Shown in pieces: positions 11,723 through 64,000 of a stretch of 64,000 nucleotides of DNA (within the stretch, counting starts at the first letter, position 1; each line of letters begins with the position of its first letter). The notes beneath the pieces were generated by a model. That model was given only the letters and a program-made list of their open reading frames with translations, did not search any database and was not told where the DNA came from. The position numbers and the translations under genes were made by a program. The DNA is from Athripsodes cinereus (lineage: Eukaryota > Arthropoda > Insecta > Trichoptera > Leptoceridae): the NCBI GenBank assembly GCA_947579605.1, contig OX388325.1, forward strand, positions 7,559,572 to 7,623,571. Reading direction: 5' to 3'.

Positions 11723-12018
11723 TGATCCATACAGAATAAATAAAATAGAAAAAATAAAAAAATAAAATTTGTTATATGAATGCGTTTTGATACAATCATT
11801 TGTATTTGGAATGATATGTCATAGATTAATTTATTGTATTAAGAACGATTTGCCATAATTTAATTTATGTACATGTTAAACTATCATAGTATATCCATTT
11901 GTAAGTTAAATGAGTTATCAAATATTTCACACACAATTAATTGCTTTATTTGACCTGAGATAGAGTTGTATATATTTTAATTTTCTTTTTAATAGATTTG
12001 TTCAATAGAACATTCATA

Positions 12019-21300: not shown

Positions 21301-24300
21301 GGTAAATCGAGATACGAAGTACACAAAAAAGTATTACCTCAAACATTATTGTGCACGAATATGATAAGTTGTAAGTAATAAATCAGTGAATATGATAATG
21401 TATTAATTAAGTCTTCAAATTCATAAACAAAGCAATAGTTAAAGTTTCAAAATGCTCCCCTGTAAAATCCCTCTGTGGCACTTACAACATCCGTACTCTA
21501 AGCCATCGATATGTTGATTGTTTTTGTTCCAAGTATGTTTTGTATTGCAATTGTACTAAAAAGGCTGTTCTGGCCGTATATTCTGTTAATAAATAAAAAC
21601 TAGCATTCTAAAATTTAATGCTCTACCACTGGCCAGAGATGTCATCAGCGTCACTGACGTAACTAACTTTTAACTTGGTAACGATATTGCGTTCGTTATT
21701 TTGAGTTTGAGGTAGAGTCTCGGCCTTATTAACAAGGGGTATGAGGTTCGATCCCAGGTGCCGGCAAACTCCCCTTTCATGACACAAGCTTTCAGCTTAC
21801 TGTGAAAGGTGTATAAGGTTGTATTTGGGTTTATAACAAAACCCAGATATATCTTCTTTTTTTTTAAAAAAATATCAAATTCTAACATAGTAATTCGATA
21901 GATTTATTTTACAAACCTAAATTCCCAATTTTTCCCACAATGCTGGCGATGTTTACAATGGATCCATTGGGAACTTCTGCATCCACCATAGCCTTGGAAA
22001 ATGTTTGCATCACTAAAAAGGTTCCCTACAAGAAAATGTATTTAAATTAAACCTCCGAGGAGTGTACAAGGAAACTAAGAAACGTGTTCAATTATTTTGT
22101 TTTTGTAGATGTTTTAACAAAAGATTAGTCAGTATCGCTTGTCAATGGTAAAGGTTTACCAAAATCGAGCGCGATTTAAATAATCAAGTAACAGAAGTGC
22201 ATTGTGGAATACTAAAAACATTCAAAATGTCTCGAAACTGTTACATAGTTAATCCATTGAAAATAAATGATATTAGTAGAAACTTTATTTATCAAATACT
22301 TTAAGATTCACTCTGATGACATCGTCAAAGTCAACTTCAGACAGTTTGAGAAGCCAATTATCTCTGGTTATTCCTGCCGAGTTGACTACAATTGTCGGGG
22401 GTCTTCTGTATTTACGAAGCACCTCCTCCAGAGTACATTTCACGGAGGCAGCGTGATCAACATCCAGACATAAAGATGTGTGGTCTAAAAAAAATATATT
22501 TGATTGAAGAACATTGTTCCCAAATAAAACTTAATATATGTACAATTCTTTCGGCCAGTTTCATAAAAAAATTTCATTTTACGACATTTATTTTCACGAC
22601 ACTAAATTTTAACTTTACTTTAACTTCCACATGTTTCGTGAAAAATAAAATTGGAGTGCGAAATCTTAAAATTCAACTTATAAATACATTTATACATAAA
22701 CAACATACGTAAATGATTACTAACACATACTTCAGTAATGAGTATGCTACACATCCCACACAATGCAACAGTCAATCACAGTGATGCTGCTCGGTTGCAA
22801 ATACAACCACGTGTTCTGTAATACACATTATCTGTAACTGTGTGCGTAGCGGTGCTAGGGCACTTTTAAAAAAATTCAAGTCAACCATGCATTTTTGTAA
22901 ATATTGTATACGACATTTAGTGCTCCTAAGTTTCTAAATTTAGAGTTAGTTCAAGACCGAGCGTTGTTACTGGGTATTGTGTATAGATACTGCTCATGTT
23001 GAATGGTATTTATTTATTTATTTATTTATTTATTGATACATCAACGGCCAACAGGCCTTTTAAAAGTAAGGTTGGCACAATACAAAACATAACAATAATA
23101 AACTTTTCTTAACTATACAAATTAGTTTAGACATAAATATTATCGAAAAGATGGTAACAAAATAAAAAAAAAACCCTATCAAATAAAAAAACAGTAAAAT
23201 TGGTGTGAGCAAGTGTAAGTATACACAATAACATAACAAATCAAAAATAAAAATATTAATCATTTAAAACATTTCAATTAGGTATCACAAATAAATAGGT
23301 AGGTACAGTAAAATAAAACAAAATAAATCACATAATAGTAGTATGTATAACCAAGCAGTATCATAGTATGCGTAAACATCAATCAATCAATACTCCCGAA
23401 CTTGCAACAATAATCGAAAAACAAATACACACAAACACCAACACTCCGCTCAAAATTCAACAACCATGCACAATAGATTCCAATAATGCGGAAGAAGATA
23501 TTAAATTATTACATGAGTATCAATGGCATTAAAAAATGTTGTGAATATTAAAACATTACCCATACCAACACATAACCACACATACATACATAACAAATTA
23601 CAAATTGAATAAATAAAAAAAATAGCTTATGAAATAGTACACATAAAAAATGTAAAAAAATCAACCAGATTTAAAATGTATATACCTATACGATAGTCTC
23701 ATTCAAAACAGGATAATATCCCCTTTTAAATATATGGACATAATTTCAAACTACTTATGATTAAGGAAAATAAATAGATAACGACACTACATTTATTTAA
23801 ATATATAAAAAAAGACATTATTCCCTACATCAATATTAATCCAAAAAAAAAAAAAAAAAAACGACAGTTTAATATTAAATAAAAAAATAAAATAAAATTA
23901 TCGCCAATAAATATCAACAATATCAATCCAAATAAAAACCAACAATTTAATATAAAATAAAATAAATTAAATCAAAAATAAAATTAAATCAAAATTATCG
24001 CTAATAAATGCTATATAAAAACAAAATAAAATAAATTGTAGGCAACAAATGTCAACAATATCAATCCAAACAAAAATCAATAATTTAATATAAAATAAAA
24101 CAAATAGAATAAAATAAATTATCGCTTATAAATGTTTACACTATCAAAGACAGTTTATGGATTGAACATGGTCTTAATTATATTCTTGAAATTAGTAAAA
24201 TTAATATTGAACATATCAATATCACTTAAAAATTTATTTCCTAGGCAGTGTAAGCGGGGAATCACTGTATTTCTCACATAGTTGGCGGAATAGTTATCAT

Positions 24301-27300
24301 AGTAAAGTAGTTCCCTACTCCTAGTACTACGTCCAGGTACCCGGTACCTTATTAAACAACACAAATCAGGGACGTCAAAGCAATTATTCACAATTCTATA
24401 CAAAAAAATTAAGTCATTCATAATTCTCCTATCCGCTAAGCTCTCTAGATGTAGACGTGATTGCAATTGTGCATAGTTTAATTCATCTCTTGGGATACAC
24501 AGTTTATAATTAATGAATCTCAAAAATTTGCGCTGCACACGATCAATATTATTGATATGAACATTATAACCAGGCGACCAGATGGGAGTACAGTATTCCA
24601 AGTGACTACGGACCAGAGAAGTATACAAAAGGGATATGGCGTGTATGTTTTGAAAATCACAAACCGTTCGAAGTACAAATCCCAGTGATCGCATTGCCCT
24701 TCCAGTCATCTCAACAATATGATTTACAAAGGATAACCTTTCATCAAATAGAACTCCCAAATCATGAATTTCCGTCACTCTAGTAAGTCGCACACCCTCC
24801 ATAGAATAATCAAATTCTACAAATTTCTTTGTTCTACCGAATCGAATGTACTGACATTTTTGAACATTAAGGTATAAATTATTTTTATGACACCAAGAAG
24901 TAATCATATTAAGATTATCTTGAACGACATTACAGTCTTGAATAGTTTCAATTTTTTTAAATAATTTTATGTCATCGGCAAATAGTAAGAATTCGATATT
25001 TTTTAGTTCGGGTATAATGTCGTTAATGAATATCAAGAACAAAATTGGCCCAAGATGGCTCCCCTGAGGCAATCCTGAAGTTGCTGCAAAATTATAAGAA
25101 CAGATATTGTTTATTTTTACACGCAACATGCGACCAGATAAGTAGCTACTGAACCACTCTAATAGTGGATTCGTTACTCCAAGCATCAAAAGTTTCCTCA
25201 GCAATACACTGTGAGACACCTTATCAAACGCTTTACAAAAGTCTAAATATATGGCATCGACCTGACCTCCCATAGCAAGACAATTAGCAATATAATCCTC
25301 GTAGATAGTCAAATTTGTTAAAGTTGATCTGCCTGCCATAAAACCATGTTGCTGGGGTTCGATCACAAGGGAAATAGATGGTAAAATTATGTCAAGAACA
25401 AGTGATTCAAAAATTTTAGCAAGTGTCGATTGCAAACATATCGGTCTATAGTTACAAATATCATTCTTATCGCCCTTTTTAAAAATGGGAGTGATGTTAC
25501 CCATTTTCCATGTATTAGGGAAATAACCCATTTCAAGCGATTTATTGAAAATGAATGTCAGTGGTACAATCAATGCTTCAACGCATTTCTTAATAAATAT
25601 GGGAGGTACGTTATCAGGGCCTGCAGCCTTTCTAATATCAAGTTTTAATATCTTAGATCTAACGCTATCTACATGAATATAACATTTAGATAAATTCATA
25701 CATTTATCATAAAACACAGTTGGATTGTCTACATCGGTGTTGCTTACCTCAAATACATCGCTGAATCTATCTGCAAATAAATTAACAATTTTTTGCATGT
25801 CATCTGCTCGTACATGTTCTAAGTACATCTCCGCAGGGTAACCAGAATCATTTTTGCCCAATGTATTACGGAATTTCCACAGACTTCTTGCATCGGTAGT
25901 AATGGTTTCAGCGTTTTTGATGTGCTCTTGGTAGCATTTAGACTTCAGAACTTTGCATCTGGTCCTCAACTCAGAAAATCTGTTGTAGTACTTCGCCTCA
26001 TGAGTTTCCTTATAGTTTCTATGGACCACCTTCTTTTCCGATATCAGTTTTCTCAATTCCGGAGAAAACCATTTCGGAAATGTGCTGCATTTGTACTCTT
26101 CATACGGTACGTATTGATTGATTGTATCATAGAGGATACCATATAGAACAGCAAGAACAAATTCCATATTGTCGTTATTTAAAAATGTCCAATCTGCATT
26201 AAAAAGGAAGTCCACAGCCCCACCATAGTCACCTTTATTAAAATTATGTGCAAAGGTACGTTCATTTCTTGATATGTTTGAATTTAAATTTATACTAAGC
26301 TTCAGCGGTGGGTGGTAGGTATCAACAATTGAAAGTTCCTCATCTGATCGTTCCACACTCGTTAATTCACAGTTCGAGAATACCAGATCAAGCAATCGAC
26401 CCTGAGAGTTATAAATGAAGTTATATTGAGTAAAATTCAAAAAATTCATAGTTTCCAAAAGAACCGTCGCTCCATCCTGGTTACTTCCATTTATATGGGT
26501 TTCATCTGTGTCCGGAGACCATATCACTCCTGGTAGGTTGAAATCACCAAATAACCAGAATTTTGCCTGAGGGTATTTTGAATTCAAGTTTTCTAACTCT
26601 TCACAGTAACGTTCGTATATATCTAATGGGGAAGATGGAGGAATGTAAACGGCTCCAATAACAATTTTCACTAAGTTTAATTTGATGACCACACAGACCT
26701 GCTCGATGCTGTTATAAGTAGTTTTAATCAAGGAAGATGCAAGATTTTTCTTTACTGCTATGAGCACCCCACCACCTCTTGACTTGTCACTTGTTCGATT
26801 ACTTCGATCCATTCTATAGACATTGTACGTTTCAAATCCCAACTCTGAATTGTTGATTGAGCTATCTAGCCAAGTTTCTGTGAGAATAAGTATTGAGTGA
26901 TTCAGTAACGGTATATTTTGACGTAAGGATGATAATTTTGTATTATTGTTACATTTCTGTGTGCTAGGTCTAGATCAGAGGTTCCCATTTTTTTTTCTCA
27001 TAGACCACTTTCAAAATTTTACTGGTTCCAGTGGACCCCCTGCATTTCTACCAGGAAAGTAAATTTACAAAGGAAGTGTAAAAATATTTCAAAGTAATTT
27101 AACCTTCATCTCCAGCTGCAGGTGCTACAGAAGTTTTGATGGTTTCCTGACAGGATGATAAGTTCTTGTCAGCTCCTACCACTATAGCGCCTTCTCTCGA
27201 TAGCACCTGACACACAGCACGGCCAATACCAGACCCAGCACCTATAAAAAAAAAACAGATATAAGCAAGATATATTCTGCACAAATAGTAACATACATTT

Positions 27301-36750: not shown

Positions 36751-38138
36751 TTAATCAGAGGGACTGTCATCCCAATGCACAGATCTCACATCTATCCGAT
36801 CCATATGTCTTTTCCAGAGCTGATCAGTACCTTTGATTCTAATAAGAAAAGTTCTATTTCCTAATATCTTTTCAATTTTACCTAAAACCATCTTTTCACT
36901 CCTGAGATCTTTGACAAGTACTGATGTACCCAAATTAAATTCCTTTTTCCTCCCCGAGACAAACTTCGAGCCCCTGGAACTATCTTTACAAGTTTCCCTA
37001 TTTACATACCTTTCCTCATATCTATACCTATTTAAACATTTACATCCATTGTTATTCCGCTTTTTCACTAAATTCTTAACTATATTCTCAATGTCTATAT
37101 TAAAATTAACCCAATAAAAATAACTTCTAACAAATGATTTCATTTTCCCAATAACTGAATAATTTTTACACAAATAATTTATCACAATACCTTTAACTGA
37201 TTCCGGAATAACAATTCTATCTCTGTAGAATAAATAATCCTTGTACACAGTCAAATGTTCCCTCACATTAAACAACTTCGCAATAGATTCATTTAACTGT
37301 CTTTTGCACGGCCAATTATTTTTTCCCACATATTTAACAACTTTTTCCAATGTATAATCACTTTTACTTCTCTCCAAAATTAATTTCGAATTAAAACTAT
37401 TATTTTTATTTACAAAATCTAATTTTTGTTGTTTCACATTACACGCAAGCGATGCGTTCGCACTGAAATTCGGAATATTTTCAATGGGCTTACATGCAAC
37501 AATATTGTTTAATTCACTGCCTTCCGTGCTATGTACTTTGTACCCTATATTATACCTACGCATAAAATCTGTACCCAATATTATTTTATTCCCGCTCTCT
37601 GTTACAACAAATTTAATATTTTTTTCCATTCCATTATGATTTATTTTACAATGTTTAATACCTAACACATTCAAACTGTGCCCGCTATACGTAGATAAAT
37701 TAATTTCATCACACTTCTCTATTATATTATTTTCGTTGAATATTTCTTGCAATTTTTGAATAGATATACAGCTAATATTCGCTCCCGAATCTAAAATACA
37801 TTCAACATTTTTATTCTCAATTCTTACATTTAATTTTATAAAATCGTTTTCGGTGTCTTGCGAATTATAAATACCTTGTATCTTATAACAATTTTCACTC
37901 AAATGCCCTTTAGATCTACATTTTCTACAAAAAAATTCTCTATTAAATTTACATTCACTTTTATAGTGATTTCCCTTACAAATAAAACATGAAACATTTT
38001 TATTATGCTTATACCTACTCGTATTTACATTTGAATTTAACCTTGAAAATTTTGACGGTCGATTATTTTTCTTATAATCTGTATCTGTACTACTTGAACT
38101 ACTGAAACTATTATTGTTTCGCCTGGAAATCTGGCTAT
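36751..38138 (-). CDS. Zinc-knuckle, protease and integrase-terminal fusion of the LTR element
   Basis: The frame is open from the A8 run at 38138-38145 to the stop at 36751. In order: an Asn/Ser-rich linker; two CCHC zinc knuckles (CFICKGNHYKSEC and CRKCRSKGHLSENC); an aspartic protease with the active-site triad ILDSGANISC and IILGTDFMRR; then an abrupt jump to an integrase-N-terminal-like block (LTVYKDYLFYRDRIVIPE ... YFYWVNF), with its zinc-binding His/Cys mostly lost; then a C-terminal integrase-tail-like domain (GTSVLVKDLR ... LWKRHMDRI). RT, RNase H and the DDE core are absent, so this copy cannot replicate alone. The stop matches the usual end of pol just before the 3' LTR. Confidence 0.82.
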
Positions 38139-38687
38139 TTTTTTTAAATTTTCTTCCTCTTTTTCTATTTTTCTCTCTAGTATGTGCTCATAACTAGAAG
38201 CCAAAGCAACTGCTTCGTTCAAAGATACTTTATCTTTATCACATTTTAAAAATAACTGTTGTTTAATCTCTTTATTTCTAATTCCGATTATAAACAAATC
38301 TTTTATATTACTTTCTAATCTAGTACCAAATTCACAATTTATACTTAATTCTCTTAATCTTAAGGCAAAATCTTTAACATTTTCCGAATGACCTTGAGTA
38401 GCCTTGAAAAAAATTTCACGCGATTCAAATACACTTTTTTCCTCTTTAAAATAACCATTCAATATCTGAATCAACTCTTTATAAGACTGTTTTTCCACAG
38501 AAGCTGGAAAACACAGATCAGACAGTAGCTTGAAACTGCCTTGGGACAACGATGTTATGAAGAAAGCACGCTTCTTCACATCAGTCCAACTTTCATCATT
38601 TAATAGCAAGGCGTTCTCCCACCTTGTTCTGTAAGAAGGCCAACTCATTGTCTTGTGACAAAACGGCTCTAAACTTCTCGAAGTCAT
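38037..38687 (-). CDS. Gag (capsid) of the LTR element
   Basis: 216 codons from the ATG at 38687. The block WENALLLNDESWTDVKKRAF, then FKLLSDLC and SYKELIQILNGYF, matches Ty3/gypsy-type gag capsid helices. The frame should continue into the zinc knuckles but is in the wrong register after an A8 run (38138-38145), and ends about 100 nt later. Either a -1 slip at the run joins the products or a one-base indel broke gag. Confidence 0.8.
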   Translation of the reverse strand: MTSRSLEPFCHKTMSWPSYRTRWENALLLNDESWTDVKKRAFFITSLSQGSFKLLSDLCFPASVEKQSYKELIQILNGYFKEEKSVFESREIFFKATQGHSENVKDFALRLRELSINCEFGTRLESNIKDLFIIGIRNKEIKQQLFLKCDKDKVSLNEAVALASSYEHILERKIEKEEENLKKIARFPGETIIVSVVQVVQIQIIRKIIDRQNFQG

Positions 38688-39741: not shown

Positions 39742-42700
39742 ATGGGGGAAGATCAACGGAAAATTATTTTGCAACAAGCGAATATGTTTACAGAGTTATT
39801 TATCAGTCGTTTTGAGTCGCAATATAATCACATGTCAGATATCACTCAAGGAAAAGCAAAATTAAAGAAACCTGCAATACAAACAGTAGCCGAGCGTACT
39901 TTAAACGCACTTTGTCTTGATTTTCCTATTCCCGTTGGATCTTTACTAGGAAAGGCATACGATACACATATCAAAAAAGTGATGAAAAAAACAGTCAAAT
40001 TGTTTCCACATAATATACAAAATATTCGCAGCCAACTGTGCAAGTTTGCTTTTCACGTGTTCAGATGTTACGAGTCATTGCTGGCAAATATCGATTATGA
40101 TGATGATGATCCAAATACTTATCCTGCCATCACCGATAAATATAACAAAATCATTGATGTTGCCATTGATAAAATATTTTCATATTTTGTATCCAACAGG
40201 TCTAAAATTAGAACCAATGATAAAACTTCATATACAAGTCATTTTATGAAAGCATTCTTTTCTGCAACTCTTAATAAATTGTTCCCATCGGAAACTTTGT
40301 CCACAGTTAACAACGTGGGTATTGTTATGATTGATAAATCAAATAACCAATTGAGACACTTTAGACCAGAGAAAATTGCAAATATCGAACATTACCGTTT
40401 ACTTAATGAAGAAGAGATATTAAATTACGATAAAAGTGATTATACAGAAATGTGTGATAAGTTAAATGATATTCTGGATATTGTTTACTTGGAGAAATTG
40501 AACGTAGACAACAATTGTAAATATTGTTTGAAAGATTACCCAATTGCTTCATTTGAAAAGAAATACTTAAATAAAAAAACATCAAACACAGATTGTGAGG
40601 ATAGTTACAGTTTTCATCCATTTGATCTCCCAGATGGGACAAATTTATACATAAAAAGGAAGAAACCTGTGGATGAAGTTCTGAAAATATTAAAGAAAGA
40701 CTATATTGCTGTTGTTTATGGTCTAAAAGGATGCGGAAAGACAGAACTAGCCATAGATATTGGTAATTATATGATGAAATATCATAAAGTCATATGGATT
40801 GATGGCACATCTCATATTTCTACAGCACGTTCTTTCAAACGTCTTTATGAGCAAACATTTGAAAAGGATATGGAAGAGGAAGAAGCGATGGAAAATATTG
40901 AGAATATTGCTGCTGAAATATATGCCAAATACAGTAAAACTCCCAAGATTTTGATAATAAATAATGTGGAGTCTAAATTATTTGCTAAAAAAATACTCCC
41001 CAAGCAAAGGAAGTGCGACAAGTGGAATATATTAATAACCACATCTAACAAGGATTGGCATCTTCCCGATTTGCCTGTAACATTAATCCCATTGGATATG
41101 ATGGAGGCTGAAGAAGCTCAGCAATTATTTGTGAAAAATATTAACGTATTGATGGAGGATTTGGATGTTGAATATGAGAGTCCAGATAATGATAATGTTG
41201 TTATGAATGATATAGAGGAATTGGTAAACAGTATACCAAAGTATCCATTTGTTATTATAAACTCATCGTATTTCATCTTCCAAAAATCTAAAAACAAAGT
41301 AAATAACGATGTCAAAACAAACTACTATCAGGCCATGTCCAGTGAAATAAGAAACTTCAAAGAACAATTCTCTAAGGAGCAAAAAAGCATACTAACGTTT
41401 AGCATTGATGATGATCCAACATATGGAAAGAGTATATATGCCATGACAAAACTCATGATTGACAGGTTGAAGGCAGAGAGAGATTCTACTAGTGATGACA
41501 ACAAGAAAGCAGTCTCTCAGGTTGCACTGGACGTATTGAATATGATGACATATTTTGAACCACATAACATCCCTTTCTCCATGTTTAAACAATATTGTTA
41601 CAAACGTTGTGTTTTATCTTTACAAGTCGACTTCTTTTCTGATATTATAGATCTGCTGGAGAATCATTTGTTCATGAAACGAAGTACTACCTTCAAAAAT
41701 ATGGAAGAGCTCGTACAAATGGTTAACAAAAAATATTACCAAGAGGAATATGAGAAAACAAACCAACTTGAAGAATGTTTGAGGAATGCTTTAGACTGTT
41801 TGGTTTATTATGCCAATGAAATGGAGGAAGACAAGGGTATAAATAATATCTTAGCACATATAGCTTCAGTGTGGAAGTACGCATGCAAATATCGCAACAT
41901 TTGCAAAGTATACATCGTTGACAAGAGAGATAATGAAGAACTTAAGATATTACCGGGTACTACTTTCCTACACATCGTTGCCCAGTATTGTGACGTATCT
42001 GTCTTCAAGCAGATAGCTGCAAATATAAAACAACATGATTTAGAAATATTGCTTTCAAAGGAAAACTTTTCACACAGAACACCATTACATTGTGCTGCGG
42101 AGGGCGGAAAACTGGAAACTGTCGAACTGATTCTTAATAAACGTAAAAATCTTATTCAAATCATAAATAACAAAACCAGAACAAAGAAACAATGGACTCC
42201 ATTGCACTTGGCCGTTAAGGGAGGATACAAAGATATTGTGAAATATCTCATCATAGATAAGAAACATAACGTACAGTGTTATTCTAACTACGGTTTTACT
42301 CCTGTTCACTTGGCCGCCCTCAACGGTTTTGACGATATCTTGGAACTCTTATTGATCAATAATGGAAATGTTAATGATGTTACCAACTATACTTTCACAC
42401 CTTTACATTTTGCATGTCAGAAAAATCAACTTGAATGTGTTAAGGTGCTATTAGAGAAGAAAGCTGATTATAAAGCTTTGACAAAGTATAATAAAACCCC
42501 CCTGCATTTAGCCGCGTTTGAAGGTAATGATGACATCGTGCAAGCGCTGTTGACATCATGTTCGGATGATGATAAATTTGATATGGACGATTTCATTAAA
42601 ATGAAGGATAGAGATGGTTTCACAGCTGTACATTGGGCAGCATTCAAAAACTATCCAAGTATAGTAGAGATGTTGCTGCTGCTGTGTAAAGATTCAAAGG

Positions 42701-42921
42701 TGCAGGATGAAGTCACGACAGAGGGAAATACAGCGCTTCATCTCTCTTCAAAAGAGGGACATTTGCAAGTGATTGAAGTATTGAGGAAATATAAAGCAAA
42801 TGTTGCCATAAAGAATGTCAATAATGAAACTGCTGTTGATTTAGCTAAAAATGATAAAGTTAAAAAAGCATTGAAGGTTTCTATGTCTCTTTTGGAGAGT
42901 TTCCAGAACATGTTCAAATAA
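39742..42921 (+). CDS. P-loop (NB-ARC/STAND-like) ankyrin-repeat protein, 1059 aa
   Basis: The ATG (AAAATGG context) follows a splice acceptor (TTTTTGCTTTCAG, exon from 39708) and an in-frame stop at 39724, so the start is secure and the whole coding region is one exon. Residues 1-300: helical, unrecognised N-terminal domain with an acidic DDDD patch near 120. Residues 315-560: STAND-type NTPase with Walker A GLKGCGKT (327-334), Walker-B-like KILIINNVE (about 402; Asp pair replaced by Asn), a sensor-like WNILITTSN (about 429) and a degenerate GLPL-like IPKYPFVI. Residues 560-740: helical spacer. Residues 745-1045: nine ankyrin repeats. This is the architecture of NLR-like signalling ATPases; no TIR, CARD or death domain is visible. 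Substrate and role are unknown; innate-immune sensing is inference. The N-terminus differs from the neighbour at 48148-55878. Confidence 0.9.
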   Translation: MGEDQRKIILQQANMFTELFISRFESQYNHMSDITQGKAKLKKPAIQTVAERTLNALCLDFPIPVGSLLGKAYDTHIKKVMKKTVKLFPHNIQNIRSQLCKFAFHVFRCYESLLANIDYDDDDPNTYPAITDKYNKIIDVAIDKIFSYFVSNRSKIRTNDKTSYTSHFMKAFFSATLNKLFPSETLSTVNNVGIVMIDKSNNQLRHFRPEKIANIEHYRLLNEEEILNYDKSDYTEMCDKLNDILDIVYLEKLNVDNNCKYCLKDYPIASFEKKYLNKKTSNTDCEDSYSFHPFDLPDGTNLYIKRKKPVDEVLKILKKDYIAVVYGLKGCGKTELAIDIGNYMMKYHKVIWIDGTSHISTARSFKRLYEQTFEKDMEEEEAMENIENIAAEIYAKYSKTPKILIINNVESKLFAKKILPKQRKCDKWNILITTSNKDWHLPDLPVTLIPLDMMEAEEAQQLFVKNINVLMEDLDVEYESPDNDNVVMNDIEELVNSIPKYPFVIINSSYFIFQKSKNKVNNDVKTNYYQAMSSEIRNFKEQFSKEQKSILTFSIDDDPTYGKSIYAMTKLMIDRLKAERDSTSDDNKKAVSQVALDVLNMMTYFEPHNIPFSMFKQYCYKRCVLSLQVDFFSDIIDLLENHLFMKRSTTFKNMEELVQMVNKKYYQEEYEKTNQLEECLRNALDCLVYYANEMEEDKGINNILAHIASVWKYACKYRNICKVYIVDKRDNEELKILPGTTFLHIVAQYCDVSVFKQIAANIKQHDLEILLSKENFSHRTPLHCAAEGGKLETVELILNKRKNLIQIINNKTRTKKQWTPLHLAVKGGYKDIVKYLIIDKKHNVQCYSNYGFTPVHLAALNGFDDILELLLINNGNVNDVTNYTFTPLHFACQKNQLECVKVLLEKKADYKALTKYNKTPLHLAAFEGNDDIVQALLTSCSDDDKFDMDDFIKMKDRDGFTAVHWAAFKNYPSIVEMLLLLCKDSKVQDEVTTEGNTALHLSSKEGHLQVIEVLRKYKANVAIKNVNNETAVDLAKNDKVKKALKVSMSLLESFQNMFK

Positions 42922-44087: not shown

Positions 44088-44249
44088 TTACACAAAGTTA
44101 GACTAGAAAACATAGAATATTAATTGACTATTGTTATATACCATACAAATATTAACATACTTTTTATTAATAACTGTTATATGAAGAGCAAATTTCCTCA
44201 ACCAATGATTTTTTAAGATTGATTGAGATGAAAAAAAAAAGATTTTATA

Positions 44250-44335
44250 TTGGCACGGAGAGGACAGCTTTCATGTTTCTTACACCCAGCTGGTCTGCTG
44301 GCTACCCCACTTGTGGGATATGCCGTGATGGTGTA
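44250..44335 (+). repeat. Dispersed repeat family C copy, with TAG microsatellite
   Basis: GGCACGGAGAGGACAGCTTT ... GCTACCCCACTTGTGGGATA ... GCCGTGATGG, then a (TAG)n run at 44335-44354. It interrupts another repeat whose halves flank it (CCTCAACCAATGATT and GATTGAGATGAAATTGGATT). Confidence 0.6.
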
Positions 44336-45842: not shown

Positions 45843-47005
45843 TTTAGAAGGATTAACTATGTAACAGTTACGAGACATTTTGAATGTTTTTTAAATATTC
45901 TACAATGCACATCCGTTACTTGATTTTTTAATAGGCAGTAATAGACAGTTAAATTCTTTTTTAAACGTGCTCAATAATTTACACCACAATATTAAATTCA
46001 CATTGGAACATAACGATAATAATGAACTAAGTTTCTTAGATTTGAATCTATCTATATCTGATTCTAAATGTCAATTCAACGTTTATAGAAAACCTAGTCA
46101 TACAGATTGTGTAATTCCGGCAGACTCAGATCATCCGATTTCTCATAAACTAGCTTCTTTTCACTCGATGATAAATCGTGCAATAAAAGTTCCTCTTTCT
46201 CCTTCAAACTTTAAAAAAGAAATTGATTTAATTAAACAAATTGCGGTCAACAATAAGTACAGCTCAGATCTCATAGACAGACTAGTTCATAAAAAACAAA
46301 ATAATATCATGTATAAAAAATACATTTATTGCGGTGAAAATAATAAAATAAATGAAAGCATTAATGACAAACCATACAGAAAAATTCTTTTTGTGGGGGG
46401 GTTAACTTCTAAGATTACTGGCTCGTTACCGGACACTATTACTCCAGCATATTACACTAATAATAAATTATCTAATTTGTTAAATAATAAAGATCCCACA
46501 GAACCCTTGCAAAAAAATGGAGTGTACACACTTAAGTGTGATGACTGCGATGCTACATATATAGGTATGACCAAAAGAAATTTTAAAACTAGACTTAGAG
46601 AGCACGAACTTTGCCTTAAAAATAGTAATTATTCCGAGTTCGCGAATCATATAATTGAATTTGATCACAATTTCGTAAAAACAAATAGTTCCTTTAAATA
46701 TACAAATATTAATAATTATTTTAAACTATGTTCTTTGGAAACATTAGAAATTAATAAAGCTTTGAATTCAAACGTAAATATTGTAAATAAAGTAATAAAT
46801 CATTATAAATCACCTCTTCTCACAATGTTTACAATGCCTAATCCTTAACAGGTGCAGCTATTGTTTTCAATTATTTTGTTTTTGTAGATGTTTTAACAAA
46901 AATATTAGTCAGTATTATCTCGCTCGTCAATGGTAAAGGTTTACCGAAATCGATCGCGATTTTAAAAAATCAAGTAACGGATGTGCATTGTAGAATATTT
47001 AATAT
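45843..47005 (+). mobile_element. Penelope-like element, truncated, flanked by inverted repeats
   Basis: A partial ORF (45967-46848) is bracketed by an about 50-bp inverted repeat: ATTCTACAATGCACATCCGT on the left near 45898 and its complement on the right near 46980. Both flanks recur elsewhere (22085-22255, 57107-57550). Inverted or tandem terminal repeats are usual for Penelope-like elements. Confidence 0.82.
45967..46848 (+). CDS. Penelope-like RT C-terminus with GIY-YIG endonuclease
   Basis: 293 codons. The first 120 residues match the post-catalytic (thumb) part of Penelope-like reverse transcriptases: LSFLDLNLSI, FNVYRKPSHTDCVIPADSDH, SFHSMINRAI. The C-terminal half is the GIY-YIG endonuclease that defines canonical elements: GVYTLKCDDCDATYIGMTKR then FKTRLREHE (about residues 185-215), with CxxC and downstream His. 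The RT palm with YxDD is missing, so the copy is 5'-truncated. The ORF start is simply the first ATG; the true protein began upstream. Confidence 0.87.
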   Translation: MLNNLHHNIKFTLEHNDNNELSFLDLNLSISDSKCQFNVYRKPSHTDCVIPADSDHPISHKLASFHSMINRAIKVPLSPSNFKKEIDLIKQIAVNNKYSSDLIDRLVHKKQNNIMYKKYIYCGENNKINESINDKPYRKILFVGGLTSKITGSLPDTITPAYYTNNKLSNLLNNKDPTEPLQKNGVYTLKCDDCDATYIGMTKRNFKTRLREHELCLKNSNYSEFANHIIEFDHNFVKTNSSFKYTNINNYFKLCSLETLEINKALNSNVNIVNKVINHYKSPLLTMFTMPNP

Positions 47006-47929: not shown

Positions 47930-48147
47930 CTTAATGAAATTTATTTTAAACCTTAATTTGTATCCCTTTTTATTAATAACATCTACACCTCCATTCTTCA
48001 TCAAGTACTCGACTATATCCTTATGACCATTCTCAGATGTCATGTGCAGTACAGTTGACAATTTCTATTTATGTGTAACACCTTCATTTCGCCCCGAGTA
48101 CTCAACTATCGCCTCATGACTATATTGGGCAGCTGTGTGTAATCCAG
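47930..48147 (-). pseudogene. Lost C-terminal ankyrin repeats of the NACHT gene
   Basis: Directly after the stop, another minus frame (shifted by one) continues the array: LTGLHTAAQYSHEAIVEY, then a stop (TAG near 48062), then LSTVLHMTSENGHKDIVEYL MKNGG. The open gene has therefore lost at least two repeats to one frameshift and one nonsense change, unless an unseen intron joins them. Confidence 0.75.
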
Positions 48148-51100
48148 TCAACAATCGTTATTCTTTTCATTTATTACGCCTCCACCATTCTGCAGTAAGT
48201 ACTCCACTATATCCTGATGACCATTATGGGAAGCAATACACAATGCAGTCATACCATTGTCATCTCTTTCATTGATAACAATTTTCGGTCCATTTTGCAG
48301 CAAGTACTCAATCACATTCTTATGTCCATTCGCAGCTGCCATATGTAGTGCAGTCGAACCGTCTTTATTCTTGTCATTTATTATAATTTTGACTTCATTT
48401 TGCAATAAGTACTCTACTACATCTCTATGACCATTACAGGCAGCTAAATGCAATAAAGTTTGACCATCATTATCTTTCTCAAATAATGCACCTTCAGATA
48501 CATGCTGCATTAAGTACCCAATTACATTCTTATGACCATTATGGGAGGCAATATGTAGTGCAGTTCGACCATCATTATCCTTATCACTGATCATTGTATT
48601 GTATCCATTATGCAGCAAGCACTCAACTATATCCTTGTGACCATTCCATGCAGCTAAGTGTAGTGCAGTATAACCATTGTAAGACTTTTCACCAACTGTG
48701 CCTTCTGTACTAATCTGTACCAAGTACTCGACAATATCTTTATAACCATTATAGGAAGCAAAATGTAATACAGTCCAACCATCATCATTCTTTTCATTTA
48801 TAATACTTTTGGGACCATTCTGCAACAGGTACTCCACTACATCCTTGTGACCATTACAAGCAGCTATTTGCAGCATTGTGTAACTATTATTATTTTTAAT
48901 TTCATTATCTAGCAAACATCTGATAACATCTATATCGCCATATTCAACAGCATTCTGTAACAAAGTAATCCTTTCATCTATGTTGTTAACATTATCATTC
49001 TGAGCATTTGTGACCATTGCGCTTTCACTGTGTAAATAATTTTCATCAATATCATCGTCAGCTCCACTTTCCTTCAAGTATTTAACTATATGTATTTGAC
49101 TCATATTAGCAGCGACATGTAACGCAGTGTAACCCTCATTATCTTTTTCATTAATAACACATTTAGCCCCGTTCTCAATCAAATACCTAACTGCATTTAT
49201 AACACCACTCTCTGCAGCCATGTGCAATGCAGTCTGCCCATAATTATCTTTTTTAACAATACCATTTTTGTCTCTTTCACATATTAGTTTAATGATATAA
49301 GGATCACCTCCACTGGCAGCATTCATTAATGGTGTGCGTCCCTTTTTATTAGGACAATATAAATACTTTGTTTTCTTTATTATCTGTTTTGCACAATATA
49401 TATCACTCACATAATGCAATAAAGTATTTCCATTCATATCTCTACAGTTTGCAATAGACTCCACTATGGTATCATCTAATGTGGGCTGAATGAATCTATA
49501 TATTGATTCAGTGATATTTCTTTCAAATAACTTAAATATGTATGTTATTAAATTGAAGACTTTGAGAATGTCTCTATCCTCAGTTACATCCTCAGGTGTA
49601 TAACCTAATGAATTAGTTATATTATATACTCCACCTCTGCTCAATACAGAGTGAATGACTTTCATGTCTCCTCTATGAGCAGCGTAATGTAACAAAGTAT
49701 TTCCTCTGTCATCACGAGCTCCCACTGCAGCCAGTGCAACATCCTCCTCTAAACTATTAAGGGTAGACATGATTGTACAGCTACTATTCCATTCATCACT
49801 TTGTATACAACTGAATATATCTTCTATAACTCTGATTACATCACATCGTGAACTGCATATATCAGCTGGTGTCTTGTTATCTTTATCTCGACAGTTGAAC
49901 ACTGCGCCATGTGTGAGCAGCTCACATATAATCTCTCTGTCTCCCTCCACAGCAGCGTAGTGCAGAGGAGTTTGTAAATTATCATCAGACACTTCCGTAC
50001 AGGCACCCTTCCTCAACAGAGACACCACTGTTTGGGAGTTCTTGTGAAGCACGGCCCAGTGTAAAGCTGTTCTTCCACACATGTCTCTAACATCAATGCA
50101 TTTGTAAGAGATATCAAATTCTTTGAGTTTATCTTTCCCAATTATTTTAAAGAAATTTGAAATAGTTTCAAATTGTTCTATAATATTATTGGCATTTGAT
50201 GTACTGCAGCATTCTGCTGGTGTTTCTTTCCTGTTATTGAGAATATTATATTTTGCAGATTGTTTTAACAACATATTTATATTTTTACAGTCACCGAGGC
50301 GTGTTGCGATATGTAGTGCAGTGTCTCCGGCATCATCTTGTGTAGATATTATATTCAGTGGCTTGCATCTTCTCACATTATCATATATATTCAGTATTGT
50401 AGATAGGGCATTAGTTTCATCAGTATCATTTACAATATTATCATCCTCATCATCAGAACTACTGTCATCATCTCTCTCATATCCCAAGTGAGCAGCCATG
50501 TGTATTAATGTTTGTGAAGTGGAGTCCTCTATATCCCAGACTTCAGAATTGATTGATAGTATATTCCTACAGTATGTTAGCGGAATAAGATGTTTGTATG
50601 AAGATTTATAGCGAGCACCATTTAAAAGTAACACAAGGGAAATATCTGATGGCTCCTTCAAACATTCCAGAGGTGTTCTACCATCACTGTTCAATATATT
50701 CACATTTGCTCCCAAAGATATAAGATGTCTGACAAGCACTTCACTATTCACTTCAACAGCTTTGTGTAAGAGAGTTTCTCCATTGGAGTCTTGTATGTTT
50801 ACAGACTCGCAGGATGCTCCGCAAATCTGTTCTAATTGACGGCAGTAGGAATCATTACAAATGGCAGATCCTAATCTTGCTTTACATTCCATTACTAAAT
50901 ACTGGATGCATGAGAAACTCTCATCAAGAAGATAAGTACCGAGTCTCTCACTGTGAAGTGCATAGTCTAAGACTGTCTTCCCCTGAGAATCACAAAGATT
51001 AACTTCACCCCCCCTGCTCACGAGATACTTCACAACATTCATCCTGCTACTCTGAGCTGCATAATGAAGTGCTGTCATCCCTTCACTGTCCCTGTGACTA

Positions 51101-54100
51101 ATACCAGTTCCGTTTTCACACAAGTATTTGACTACAGCCAACCTCCCACACTGAGCAGCGTACATGAGAGCAGTCTCAGCAGCAGTAACACTATCTCTGT
51201 GTTCTCTACAAATATATTTTACAATTTGCATACAAGACCTATCTGTTGCTAATTTCAGACAACTCATTATATCGTCCGATGTTATATTGTTATTCTTTAC
51301 TTTCAATATATATTTAAATGTTTCTAAATAATCACATTCAGCTGCTTTCTTCAGACTTTCTTGTAGATAATTAGTATTCACACTTTGTAGTCTCGAATCA
51401 TTCTTATGAAAAAATTTAAAAACTGTTGAACAATCCTCATCTTTCAAATTAATATCTCCTATGAGGTTTTTTAAATGTATATAGCTATCTGAATTTATGA
51501 CTTCCAATACATATTGCAGGTTTTCCTGTACACTTCTTCCTGTGATGAGAATGTAAGACAGTAGGATGAGTTCATTTTTGAGGCAAAATTCAATATAGTT
51601 TACAAAACACAATGAAACGATATTTTGCAAATATATTGGCAAATGACGTTGCAATAGCATCAACGGTAATATTGAATGTTTGACTAGATGAATATTTAGA
51701 AAATTTGATGTTAGACCAAGAATGGCGAGAAATAATTCTTTTTCCATCATTTTATTGAGTACATTGCAGTTGGCTCCAGAGTCTAATAAATAAATGCATA
51801 TCTCCCACGCTCCTTTACTTCCTGCATAGTACAGAGCTGTGCGTCCATATATATCTTCCCAATTGATCATCTTTAGTGATTCACATTCAATTTGTTCCTC
51901 ATTTCCACAAATATTTCTTACATTCCCCTTCACTACACTTTTATTTGTAAATATATTTCTCTCCATATATTTACAAATAAAATAAATGTCAATGTGTGAC
52001 TCAATTAATATTTTCATATCATACCAATAAAAATGTCTATTCAGTATCATCCAATGTAAAGGTGTCCTACCCAAAACATCACACAGAGTTCCATTCCAGT
52101 CAGCAAGTATCAGAGCGTTAATTTTATCTGTGTTTCCATATTGCGCAGCCATATGTAGGGCCGATCTACCCAGTACATCTTGTACATCTCTTGGTTCCTT
52201 GTATAACAACTTGTTAAATGACTGTAAATCCTTATTAAATATTGCCTTGTGTAATGGAAGTTCAGCAACCAACATATAATTCATAAACATTTTCAACATT
52301 TGATGTTCTTCTCTGATTTCCTCAGAATATAATTCAGATTTAATAACATCCAATGCCATTGTGTATTTAGTCTTATTGCTATTTTTCTTTTGTAAAGAGA
52401 TCAGTAAAAAATGTGCAGTGCAATATTCATAGAAAGTTCTATGAGGGAAATTTAACTCGTCACAGGGACCAAACACATTGGCCTGCAACAGACCTATCAG
52501 CAAATAATCTTCTTGATTCTCGGTTATCTCCTCTTCAATATCCCTTCCATGGCAACTGTAATAATTTGGAAATAAGTGACTGAAGGCGAACTCACTGTGG
52601 GTGCTTTGTTTTTGTTTCTTTATCTGGTTGCGTTGCTGGCTGGTTAATGAATCATTTCCTTTATCCTTAAAATATATTTCATATTTGGTTTCAATAAAAT
52701 TTTCATACAACATGTTCACATCTAAGTTTTTTTCAAAGAACTTGTCGATGTTATTATCTTTGATGTATGAAAAGGAAACTTCTGATATCATTCTTAGGTA
52801 CAAAGGTATTCCTATGAACTTAGTAGCGTCTCCCAATACACAGGACATTTTCTTTAGCAAATCTTCAGCAGTCCTGTACTCCACATTTTTATTTAAATAA
52901 TTTGCCCAGTGATTAATTAAGTACTTGCACTGATCATCTGATGATATTTCTTTGAGTTTCATAGATAAAACTGAATATTGGTCTTCTAGCGAAGGTGCAT
53001 AATGTTGTCGGGTGGCGAGATAGACGGTACAAGTTGTATCTTTCACTAAGATTTTAAGTAACTCTTTGGCCTTCTCCAGTAGCTCTGGTGGAATTTCATC
53101 CAGGCCATCTAAGATGAACAACAATATGTTGTCATTGGAAGAAATATCTTTTCTTAGATAATACCGTAACAATAATGTTGCAAGAACAGAAGTGTTTGTG
53201 TTAAGAAATTCAATATTAGATAAAAATTCTACAATATTTTCATTCTCAAAACTTTGCAAAGCTTTTGTGACCAACCCTTCCCTAAAGTTTATCCTGATAA
53301 TCCACTTGGATTCCTTCATTAGTTGAGTTATGTAGGTCAGATATGTGGACTTGCCCATCCCAGGATTGTCTGATATGATTACTAATGACGGAGAATCTGA
53401 TGAAGTCAATTCTATGGTTTGGTACTCACACTCACTCTGTCTCAATAGTTCCATGGACCCGTGGGACTGTATCCACTTCAGATCTTTATCATTGCACCAT
53501 TCCAGCAAGTGAACTGTATTGGCTTCTTTACAGCGCTCTTTAAACTCTCGCTCTCCTTCATCTCCTGTGCACATTATAATATTGTTTGTACATCTTTCTA
53601 ATTCATCCTCGGTACATCCATTAAAATGTTCTTTAAGTTTAATATTAAATGTTTCACAACTTGTTATATTTCTCACAACAACATATAACTTCTCACCCCT
53701 ACTTATTATTTCAGACATCTTCTTCATGTTAATCTTTACTATATTATTTACCTGCTGTAGTTCTCTTTGTATGAAATAAGTTGGATTGAATACTTGACGT
53801 ACATATACAGACTCCTCGTCTTTGATTTCAACACAGAATATTTTTTCGTCACAGTTTATTTTACATACATCTGTAAATTTCTCTTTCTTTTCATCAAATG
53901 TAATTGTCTTTACATTATTTACATCATCCACAGAGCTACATAGCCTCAGCAGATTATCTTTCTCACTTGCACTAACAGCAAACAGATATTGATTATTTTT
54001 TAGTATTTTATTGAACTGTTTCACGTCCAGTTTATAATGACAGACTGAGTACGCAGCATTTAAGTCATTCAGTCTCTGTGGAACTTCCCCAATTACAACT

Positions 54101-55878
54101 TCTTTTTTATTTGTTACATTATCTACTAACTCACTCAGCAACTCATTCTGATTTACTTCACATCCGCCACTTTCGTTGAACTCCTTGAACTTTGTTAACA
54201 AATCTATCAGAGACATTTTTACACCTTGAAACTTGATTATCTCTTTTGTAAGAACTTCAGATTGAAGTGAAATTTCATTTATAAATATATTTTCAGTAAT
54301 GTTATGTATGGTAGTATAATCATAAACAGATTCTAAAGCACTTCTTAAGTCTTCATTACACGTAATGTAAAAGTGCTTTGATTTTCCATGATCTTTCATA
54401 ATTTTACACAATTTATCTACCTGAATCCACTTCCCTGTACCGTATGATGTACACTTGAAGACTATTACTGACATTGAATCATCAGCATTCACAATATCAC
54501 ATAAAGACATTTTGTCTTTCACTTCTTCCACGTCGACGATATACAAGTTAGTTTCGTCATCTGAGTATGTTTGATACAGTTTTTTAATTATAATATTTGG
54601 ATCTCTCTGCACCATTATCTGTGCAACATCAACATTTTGATTATGCATTTGAGCTTTGAAGCTCTCAGTGGAAGTATTAGTGAAATTAATAGAGTAAAAT
54701 AATTCATTTAATTTCTTTTTCTGATACGAGGACGTCTCTTGCAGATAAATCTTAATCAATAAATTATGACAATCCTTCTTATTAAAACATTTAGCACTTT
54801 TCTCATTAAACCACTTGTCCATTTCATTGAATAGGTTATTAGCTACAGACTTTATGTTGCAGTGTATGAAGTAAGGATGTTCTCTCAATAGCCTAACTAT
54901 AACACTATCCATTGTATTGACATTTGGTTGATTTGTGGCTAAAATAAACAATTTCAGAAACTGCTTTAACCACTCTTCAGATATACGGGGTACATCTACA
55001 GGACTTTGCGTCATGACGCCCTCCACATATAATTTCATTCCTTGAATTTCTTTTTGAATGTTGGTTAACATTTTCTTTTGTTTTGTTAGCACTGAAAGAA
55101 CTTCCTTTCTGAATTGTGTTTGTATTGAGTCATTTTCACTAAACAGTCCCTCACCATTGACAAAATCATCCTTTATTCCTACAATACGGTATCTACTAGG
55201 ACATTCACATTCCTCTTCCAACTTGTACACAGTAACATATAAATGTGTCTCAATAATATTTAAATCAACATTTTCAGATAATTTGATGTTGGAACTTTTA
55301 TTGAAACCGTGAATGAAATTCCTCGCGAGACATCCAATATGATACTTGACAACATTATCGGATAATATTTTATAATGTTCATATTTGAGTCTATAGTAGG
55401 AGTCTAAGCAAGATATTCCCTGTAAGATAGAAGGTATTTCAGTGGAGGGGAGCTTCTCATGATGTTTCTTGAATGTCTCATTGACTTGACAGTTAGTGTA
55501 CAGTACTAAAGCTTGTATATTACTCTCACTGTGTTGGATGCTTGTCATATATGAATGAAAGTATTTAACCAAATTGAAATCTTTCTCTCCGGAAGATATC
55601 AGCATATTCTTGTTTATTGTTTTTTCATTTGCCAGCTTGTGCTTAAGTTGTATGAGTGTTTCGTATTTAACATCATTTATATCTTGTGAGACCACTACAT
55701 CGTCAAACTTGCCTGCTTCAGTTTGTTTGACTTCCGCCTTCAATTGAAAGTTTTGTGCATCATTGTCAGTAGCTCCTTGCACCAAGAGAGCCACCAGCAT
55801 CTTGATTGGATAGAATGCCCCTGCAGTACTGCCTGAGTCTCCTTTGGAATATCCCTGGAGTGATGCACTCTGATCCAT
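48148..55878 (-). CDS. NACHT-ankyrin protein with PD-(D/E)XK-like N-terminus, 2576 aa
   Basis: One uninterrupted coding exon; the ATG lies 16 nt after a splice acceptor (CTTATTTCAG, exon from 55894). Residues 15-81: SGSTAGAFYPIK, then E49, F58-D59-D60-V and I76-Q-L-K79-H-K, the E...D...QxK pattern of PD-(D/E)XK nucleases such as bacterial Cap4/DUF4297-type effectors. Residues 82-820: long helical/mixed region, unrecognised. Residues 825-1040: NACHT ATPase with Walker A NPGMGKST (K843), Walker B FILDGLDE (D924, D927, E928) and sensor VYLATRQ. About 1040-1200: winged-helix/helical part (FPHRTFYEYCTAHFL). About 1205-2576: at least 25 ankyrin repeats, the last eight nearly identical. By family logic an oligomerising sensor in the cytosol; ligand and nuclease activity are unproven. 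Bacterial (Wolbachia-like) contamination is unlikely given the intron and flanking insect repeats. Confidence 0.92.
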   Translation of the reverse strand: MDQSASLQGYSKGDSGSTAGAFYPIKMLVALLVQGATDNDAQNFQLKAEVKQTEAGKFDDVVVSQDINDVKYETLIQLKHKLANEKTINKNMLISSGEKDFNLVKYFHSYMTSIQHSESNIQALVLYTNCQVNETFKKHHEKLPSTEIPSILQGISCLDSYYRLKYEHYKILSDNVVKYHIGCLARNFIHGFNKSSNIKLSENVDLNIIETHLYVTVYKLEEECECPSRYRIVGIKDDFVNGEGLFSENDSIQTQFRKEVLSVLTKQKKMLTNIQKEIQGMKLYVEGVMTQSPVDVPRISEEWLKQFLKLFILATNQPNVNTMDSVIVRLLREHPYFIHCNIKSVANNLFNEMDKWFNEKSAKCFNKKDCHNLLIKIYLQETSSYQKKKLNELFYSINFTNTSTESFKAQMHNQNVDVAQIMVQRDPNIIIKKLYQTYSDDETNLYIVDVEEVKDKMSLCDIVNADDSMSVIVFKCTSYGTGKWIQVDKLCKIMKDHGKSKHFYITCNEDLRSALESVYDYTTIHNITENIFINEISLQSEVLTKEIIKFQGVKMSLIDLLTKFKEFNESGGCEVNQNELLSELVDNVTNKKEVVIGEVPQRLNDLNAAYSVCHYKLDVKQFNKILKNNQYLFAVSASEKDNLLRLCSSVDDVNNVKTITFDEKKEKFTDVCKINCDEKIFCVEIKDEESVYVRQVFNPTYFIQRELQQVNNIVKINMKKMSEIISRGEKLYVVVRNITSCETFNIKLKEHFNGCTEDELERCTNNIIMCTGDEGEREFKERCKEANTVHLLEWCNDKDLKWIQSHGSMELLRQSECEYQTIELTSSDSPSLVIISDNPGMGKSTYLTYITQLMKESKWIIRINFREGLVTKALQSFENENIVEFLSNIEFLNTNTSVLATLLLRYYLRKDISSNDNILLFILDGLDEIPPELLEKAKELLKILVKDTTCTVYLATRQHYAPSLEDQYSVLSMKLKEISSDDQCKYLINHWANYLNKNVEYRTAEDLLKKMSCVLGDATKFIGIPLYLRMISEVSFSYIKDNNIDKFFEKNLDVNMLYENFIETKYEIYFKDKGNDSLTSQQRNQIKKQKQSTHSEFAFSHLFPNYYSCHGRDIEEEITENQEDYLLIGLLQANVFGPCDELNFPHRTFYEYCTAHFLLISLQKKNSNKTKYTMALDVIKSELYSEEIREEHQMLKMFMNYMLVAELPLHKAIFNKDLQSFNKLLYKEPRDVQDVLGRSALHMAAQYGNTDKINALILADWNGTLCDVLGRTPLHWMILNRHFYWYDMKILIESHIDIYFICKYMERNIFTNKSVVKGNVRNICGNEEQIECESLKMINWEDIYGRTALYYAGSKGAWEICIYLLDSGANCNVLNKMMEKELFLAILGLTSNFLNIHLVKHSILPLMLLQRHLPIYLQNIVSLCFVNYIEFCLKNELILLSYILITGRSVQENLQYVLEVINSDSYIHLKNLIGDINLKDEDCSTVFKFFHKNDSRLQSVNTNYLQESLKKAAECDYLETFKYILKVKNNNITSDDIMSCLKLATDRSCMQIVKYICREHRDSVTAAETALMYAAQCGRLAVVKYLCENGTGISHRDSEGMTALHYAAQSSRMNVVKYLVSRGGEVNLCDSQGKTVLDYALHSERLGTYLLDESFSCIQYLVMECKARLGSAICNDSYCRQLEQICGASCESVNIQDSNGETLLHKAVEVNSEVLVRHLISLGANVNILNSDGRTPLECLKEPSDISLVLLLNGARYKSSYKHLIPLTYCRNILSINSEVWDIEDSTSQTLIHMAAHLGYERDDDSSSDDEDDNIVNDTDETNALSTILNIYDNVRRCKPLNIISTQDDAGDTALHIATRLGDCKNINMLLKQSAKYNILNNRKETPAECCSTSNANNIIEQFETISNFFKIIGKDKLKEFDISYKCIDVRDMCGRTALHWAVLHKNSQTVVSLLRKGACTEVSDDNLQTPLHYAAVEGDREIICELLTHGAVFNCRDKDNKTPADICSSRCDVIRVIEDIFSCIQSDEWNSSCTIMSTLNSLEEDVALAAVGARDDRGNTLLHYAAHRGDMKVIHSVLSRGGVYNITNSLGYTPEDVTEDRDILKVFNLITYIFKLFERNITESIYRFIQPTLDDTIVESIANCRDMNGNTLLHYVSDIYCAKQIIKKTKYLYCPNKKGRTPLMNAASGGDPYIIKLICERDKNGIVKKDNYGQTALHMAAESGVINAVRYLIENGAKCVINEKDNEGYTALHVAANMSQIHIVKYLKESGADDDIDENYLHSESAMVTNAQNDNVNNIDERITLLQNAVEYGDIDVIRCLLDNEIKNNNSYTMLQIAACNGHKDVVEYLLQNGPKSIINEKNDDGWTVLHFASYNGYKDIVEYLVQISTEGTVGEKSYNGYTALHLAAWNGHKDIVECLLHNGYNTMISDKDNDGRTALHIASHNGHKNVIGYLMQHVSEGALFEKDNDGQTLLHLAACNGHRDVVEYLLQNEVKIIINDKNKDGSTALHMAAANGHKNVIEYLLQNGPKIVINERDDNGMTALCIASHNGHQDIVEYLLQNGGGVINEKNNDC
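48150..48880. repeat. Homogenised ankyrin-coding tandem repeat, about 105-bp period
   Basis: Seven to eight units recur at about 105-bp spacing, each with TGACCATTA near 48220, 48323, 48426, 48530, 48635, 48743 and 48848. Encoded units read NGHKDVVEYLLQNGPK-INEK. DNA similarity is much higher than among the upstream repeats. Confidence 0.82.
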
Positions 55879-56002
55879 TGCTTTGGATGAGCTCCTGAAA
55901 TAAGATTTAATAATATTATTTATAAAAATATATTGAAATGTGAATCCATGATGACTGCATCACATTAATATTGTAGAAGTCTGCTGTTTACATAGTGGCC
56001 GT

Positions 56003-58914: not shown

Positions 58915-59544
58915 TCACGTGACATTTTGTATAGGCGATAAATAAGGTCTAAACACGCCTATTTTTGATTTTTTTCCTTGTGATTGGTAAAGTACATCCG
59001 ACAGATTGGACCAATGATGAAATTGACGAATTTGGCGGGAATACCAAAATATTACTAGATCAAACGCACCAGTGCGTGAGTACTCCAGATCCCATAATAT
59101 TTCTTGCACGCACCGGTGCGTTGGTACTCCTTTATAGGTTAAACCATTGATTATGTCCATGGTGTCCCTAATTGGACATCCTAGGATGCTATGGTCCGGT
59201 GTTTCCTCGTCCCAACCACACTCGCAATCGGGAGATTCAACAAGACCGATTCGGAACAAGTGTGAATCCAGGCGCATGTGGCCGAAACGAAGTCTAGAAA
59301 TACAGACAATGTGGTGTCTGAACAATTTTTTCTTGTGAAACCAAGGTCGAGATGGGATAGATAGCTGAACTTTTTTATAATGGGATCCTGTTGGGTTATT
59401 TTGCCAGGATAAATACCAATTTTTGAAGTTAATGCATTCCAATTCATTTAGAACATCACACTCGGGTAAAATGAAGTTATCAGGAGTTCTGCAGCGAATA
59501 GCGGCCTCCTTGGCTAACAGATCTGCTCTTTCATTCACATAAAC
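58915..59544 (-). pseudogene. Non-LTR retrotransposon C-terminus with RNase H end
   Basis: The minus frame opens inside the last RNase H motif (NERADLLAKEAAI), runs through a basic linker (FHKKKLFRHHIVCISRLRFG) to the CxC...DH...C knuckle (CECGWDEETPDHSILGC), and stops at 58915. RNase H plus this knuckle points to the I or related clades. An in-frame stop lies three codons upstream, so the copy is 5'-truncated; the remaining 207 codons are intact. Confidence 0.8.
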
Positions 59545-63711: not shown

Positions 63712-63830
63712 AATGAGGTTTGCCACCCATTCTGAATGTTTTATTGTTGGCAGGGAGAGGACAGCTTGTGTGTTTATTACATGCTGCTGGTCTGCTGACT
63801 ACCCCACTTGTGGGATATGCCGTGATGGTA
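63712..63830 (+). repeat. Dispersed repeat family C copy
   Basis: TGAGGTTTGCCACCCATTCT ... GAGAGGACAGCTTG ... CTACCCCACTTGTGGGATAT ... GCCGTGATGG, as at 32005-32130. Confidence 0.62.
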
Positions 63831-64000
63831 TATATAGTAGAAGTATAATAACTTCGCACTTACATAACATTTTTTCTTTTTCAGGCAAGGCACCAGACAC
63901 CGAGTGTAATTATGGAGTAACATAACATTTAGACGAGTTGAAAAATATTATGCTTGGAGAAAAATAAAACTTATCCAAAACTAAAGCTTAGGCAAAATTA

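Follow-up and report, generated by a model that had tools for sequence, protein, structure and literature searches.

Within a 64,000-nucleotide stretch of the genome of the trichopteran insect Athripsodes cinereus (assembly GCA_947579605.1, contig OX388325.1, positions 7,559,572 to 7,623,571; hereinafter, the window), we identified a gene, encoded by an uninterrupted minus-strand frame (48148-55878, 2576 amino acids), in which an N-terminal head resembling the PD-(D/E)XK nucleases of bacterial defence systems is followed by a middle region, a NACHT P-loop domain and a long array of ankyrin repeats (all coordinates given below for parts of this gene are on the minus strand). We think it probable, with some reservation, that the product is an intracellular STAND receptor that carries its own PD-(D/E)XK effector, senses its ligand through the ankyrin repeats, is switched by the NACHT module and cuts nucleic acid. 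The frame, claimed at this length by an original prediction made from the DNA letters, is indeed open throughout, where approximately 208 stop codons would be expected by chance from base composition; the G+C content at its codon positions 1, 2 and 3 is 0.42, 0.30 and 0.32, in a window of ~33% G+C.

Evidence on the nature of the head (nuclease-like core, residues 14-135, 55474-55839, delineated from library matches, alignments and a structure model) comes from a hint-free search of the 5027 models of PADLOC, in which just two models matched, namely, PDLC00741, labelled 'Effector' (endonuclease), and PDLC02005, labelled 'SAVED_PDDEXK'; from their names, we read both as Cap4-type CBASS effectors. 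Both align the N-terminus of the profile with the N-terminus of the protein, with E-values of 2.9e-5 and 1.5e-4, respectively, for residues 1-140, 1.1e-4 and 4.9e-4 for residues 1-220, and 0.0031 and 0.012 for the whole protein. These E-values appear to be somewhat generous because controls made by scrambling or reversing residues 1-140 (34 in all) also produced a few matches to unrelated models, in 2 of 10 controls of one set and at most 2 of 24 of the other, the best of them with an E-value of 3.7e-4; nevertheless, the real head outscores every control (20.8 bits vs 17.9 bits for the best).

The catalytic residues point in the same direction. The comparison set comprised nine plasmid-borne DUF4297-type genes, of which eight carry an annotation as DUF4297 or as a double-stranded DNA nuclease, and 71 further relatives from genome and viral contigs. 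When the head was aligned with the eight, the sole invariant columns were G16, E49, D60, Q77 and K79, and in the alignment with 48 of the 71 relatives, E49, D60, Q77, K79 and N129 were identical in all 48 rows, whereas G16 was conserved in 45 and, at the D59 column, 43 rows have D and the other 5 have E. The residues that the original prediction had singled out beforehand are found at the positions named and fall on invariant columns of these bacterial nucleases: E49, a candidate metal-binding acid (55732-55734), D59-D60, with D60 as the candidate catalytic acid (55699-55704), and the QxK motif Q77-L78-K79 (55642-55650). In the head, DDx and QxK are separated by 15 residues, just as in every one of the 48 bacterial rows. 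When shuffled sequences were added to the bacterial alignment instead, only 1 of 1000 agreed at each of the four catalytic positions, and 13 agreed at D, Q and K. The E, D and (Q/E)xK residues characteristic of the PD-(D/E)XK superfamily are in register in the head, E49 being less certain than D60 and K79 because the alignment requires a 7-residue insertion between E49 and D60.

A structure model of the head, predicted with bacterial rows included and with middling confidence, suggests the alpha-beta-beta-beta-alpha-beta order of the PD-(D/E)XK core and does not lack an alpha/beta core, the absence of which the original prediction had named as evidence against itself; when known structures were re-aligned to the head, chains of LmuA and Cap4 ranked first. 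Hidden Markov models (HMMs) that we built ourselves weakly suggest the same affinity, at a level of ~1e-3 to 1e-4, none of them being sufficient alone. With an HMM of nine Cap4-like heads, residues 1-140 were outranked by 2 of 5000 shuffles, yet scored above the other frames of the window; with one of a 62-sequence mix, they were outranked by 3 of 20000; and with one of 72 DUF4297-type proteins, residues 1-220 were outranked by 9 of 10000, the corresponding hhalign value being 2.5%.

Several observations weigh against a nuclease head. Residues 1-220 have no match in Pfam (E up to 1, PF14130 included), NCBIfam or PHROGs; Foldseek returned no significant match for the head; a profile of bacterial REase-STAND heads, which departs in this respect from our other HMMs, did not match the protein at E<=10; and six of the 11 columns that are nearly invariant among the bacterial nucleases differ in the head. 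The bare count of five matched columns is not unusual, as it was reached or exceeded by 131 of 1000 shuffles and by 4 of 54 pieces cut from the protein itself. Conceivably, then, the likeness to Cap4 arose by chance, and the gene encodes an animal NACHT-ankyrin scaffold with no assigned use, presumably comparable to the ANKRD50 or TANC proteins. Apart from the empty family searches, this explanation draws on our own HMM scores, which are barely above those of shuffles, and on the Foldseek result; we nevertheless deem it quite unlikely, given that two related PD-(D/E)XK effector models were the only ones among 5027 to match residues 1-140, that the catalytic tetrad was reproduced by one shuffle in a thousand, and that the core order is predicted by the model.

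The altered columns are more relevant to another explanation, under which the head possesses the PD-(D/E)XK fold but binds nucleic acid or serves for docking, the protein being a sensor or scaffold whose signal is passed on by partner proteins. Loss of activity is well established for some proteins with this fold. However, the four catalytic residues and the spacing between DDx and QxK are retained in the head, for which there would be no reason in a silent domain, and we consider a non-cutting head unlikely. On balance, the PD-(D/E)XK fold and the intactness of the catalytic residues are supported, albeit not proven, by these data.

The presence of the NACHT motifs and of the ankyrin array is shown outright. 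The NACHT domain (residues 832-990, 52909-53385) was detected with PF05729 at an E-value of 2.6e-5 and 24.6 bits, under the curated cut-off of 26.7, and both Walker motifs are of the NACHT type: GMGKST (Walker A, residues 840-845, 53344-53361) and FILDGLDE (Walker B, residues 921-928, 53095-53118), precisely the motifs reported in the original prediction. Further downstream, YLATRQ at residue 953 and FPHRTFYEYCTAHFL at residue 1144 (residues 1144-1158, 52405-52449) fit what we take to be the sensor-1 and the winged-helix motifs of NACHT proteins, respectively. The ankyrin array (residues 1237-2573, 48160-52170) is certain, with an E-value of 1.9e-144 for PF12796, and consists of 20-21 recognisable repeats interspersed with degenerate stretches: the best single-repeat model of Pfam finds 20 stretches, and a profile made from the protein's own repeats, 14 of whose matches are its seeds, finds 21 at i-E<=1, or 20 when the limit is tightened to <=0.01. 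The earlier count of at least 25 repeats was not confirmed. Pfam lists 13 families for the full-length protein (E up to 10), and these include no leucine-rich repeats, no death-fold domains and no SAVED domain. The middle region (residues 221-819, 53422-55218), approximately 600 residues long, has no above-cut-off family match in Pfam, NCBIfam, PHROGs or PADLOC.

The combination of an ankyrin sensor, a NACHT switch and a nuclease head, as in bacterial Avs proteins, suggests a ligand-driven assembly of nuclease heads. The ankyrin array would keep the receptor inactive and bind the ligand, upon which the NACHT module could exchange its nucleotide and oligomerise; oligomerisation, in turn, would gather several N-terminal heads with their E49, D60 and Q77-x-K79 residues, and, once gathered, the heads might cleave nucleic acid, with DNA as the likeliest substrate, in the manner of bacterial Avs, Cap4 and LmuA, by a presumably metal-dependent reaction. 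The role of the protein would be antiviral or anti-symbiont. The original prediction had proposed an insect counterpart of Avs that might cut nucleic acid when a ligand is sensed; the order of head, NACHT and ankyrins on which it relied holds, and PD-(D/E)XK models rank first in the library search, while the activity, the ligand and the immune role continue to be inferred. A more specific version, in which the protein is an autonomous, Avs-like arthropod receptor that combines ankyrin sensing, NACHT assembly and Cap4-type DNA cutting and acts without an adaptor, caspase or transcription, is possible, and we offer it tentatively. We file the protein among the STAND proteins, its distinguishing features being a PD-(D/E)XK-like head and an Avs-like mode of working; we do not place it in Avs, in CBASS, in the Cap4 family of Pfam or among the NLRs that bear leucine-rich repeats.

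The relationship to the bacterial systems is one of partial likeness. Where Avs proteins (e.g. Avs3, 8dgc) have a TPR-like sensor that recognises phage proteins, the protein described here has ankyrin repeats, along with the unmatched middle region and an animal host. With the DUF4297-type proteins, the head shares the catalytic E, D and QxK and the DDx-QxK spacing, but unlike Cap4, it is matched neither by PF14130 nor by any other family in Pfam. Cyclic nucleotides switch Cap4 via SAVED, and LmuB switches LmuA. No CD-NTase was detected above the cut-off with Pfam in the seven other intact open reading frames (ORFs) of the window that were scanned, the nearest signal being a weak, below-cut-off OAS1_C match (E 0.11) in a neighbouring ORF of 1059 amino acids.

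A bacterial protein, L001, similarly unites a head similar to Cap4 with a STAND P-loop in one polypeptide (nSTAND3, E 4.1e-10; Cap4_nuclease, 0.016, the latter below the cut-off). Its head matches 15 plasmid records in tblastn, one of which is that of L001; three of the 15 are annotated as HEAT-repeat proteins. In L001, the one member of this group that was scanned for domains in full, and in its relatives L005-L012, no ankyrin was seen, and the P-loop is nSTAND3 rather than NACHT; the profile of such bacterial heads mentioned above did not match the insect protein at E<=10. Seven of these relatives (L005, L006, L007, L008, L009, L011 and L012), all ~1300-1400 amino acids long, from proteobacterial plasmids and with L001-like heads, possibly constitute an Avs-like defence family of their own.

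Among animal proteins, the closest parallel in principle is SAMD9/9L, described in a review (PMC13245274) as a STAND-like protein with its own nuclease effector and, in this respect, as a departure from the other characterised eukaryotic STAND proteins, which recruit adaptors. That nuclease targets the tRNA anticodon, and the other domains differ from those found here; the same review and PMC5445408 report SAMD9/9L to be absent from arthropods. A nuclease-bearing arthropod NACHT-ankyrin protein, if the reading given here is true, would add a second such departure, its nuclease being of another type, that of bacterial defence; should the cutting activity be real, this would be an unusual animal immune receptor and a directly testable cell-autonomous defence in arthropods. 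It differs from the classical animal NLRs in that its sensor consists of ankyrin repeats and not of leucine-rich repeats; to our knowledge, and as the original prediction stated, Drosophila lacks classical NLRs. Among the literature matches listed, covering titles and the openings of abstracts, with few subscription papers and no supplements, none describes a NACHT-ankyrin protein of an animal that bears a Cap4-like nuclease.

The combination of NACHT and ankyrin repeats as such is not new in kind, since, according to passages of PMC5062602, a NACHT-ankyrin protein of the Wolbachia prophage WO has NACHT homologues throughout arthropods, including Bombyx and Culex. In that family, as in our protein, ankyrin repeats are located downstream of NACHT in the phage homologue, although the passages concerned mention no nuclease head on the arthropod proteins (PMC5062602). 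The gene could be part of the traffic between arthropods and their intracellular bacteria, as a NACHT-ankyrin protein of this shared kind, and its first use may then be conflict with symbionts or selfish transmission instead of antiviral defence. The arthropod-wide homologues, the several mobile-element ORFs in the window and the accommodation of the 2576-amino-acid frame in one exon are all compatible with such an origin; still, a tblastn search with residues 221-1193 against 50,697 phage records found nothing at E<=10, and the viral contigs yielded no relative of the NACHT region, even if neither collection need include the right prophage. We regard this origin as improbable.

As to the ends of the gene, an additional exon upstream of the frame is likely, because an acceptor-like sequence, TTATTTCAG (55895-55905), is located 16 bases upstream of the ATG and AATAAA signals follow the stop. 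Past the stop, two extra ankyrin-like repeats continue in a different frame that contains another stop (47945-48148); the C-terminus of the protein looks shortened, and, because the repeats continue in this manner, either the array formerly extended further or there is an assembly error near the stop.

The 1059-amino-acid ORF mentioned above (39742-42921, plus strand) is a second intronless STAND-ankyrin ORF, with matches to nSTAND6 (E 2e-7) and NB-ARC (8e-5), 5-7 ankyrin repeats and an N-terminal portion of ~300 residues without a match in the families tried; outside the ankyrins, it is not closely related to the main protein. Around both lie mobile-element ORFs (24155-26842, 36751-38687 and 58915-59538, all on the minus strand), among which are a non-LTR reverse transcriptase that carries an endonuclease and fragments that match an aspartic protease and, weakly, gag/integrase; the short ORF at 58915-59538 has no Pfam match and is presumably LINE-like. 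A GIY-YIG ORF (45891-47002), which we take to be Penelope-like, is flanked by a perfect inverted repeat of 41 bases, the two copies being 1030 bases apart. A dispersed 98-base repeat is present in two copies that are 85% alike (44238-44335 and 63735-63832) and, we assume, resembles short repeats of Lepidoptera, for which a literature text search gave no confirmation. Finally, the window encodes a C2H2 zinc-finger protein of 632 amino acids with approximately ten fingers (11998-13896, plus strand).
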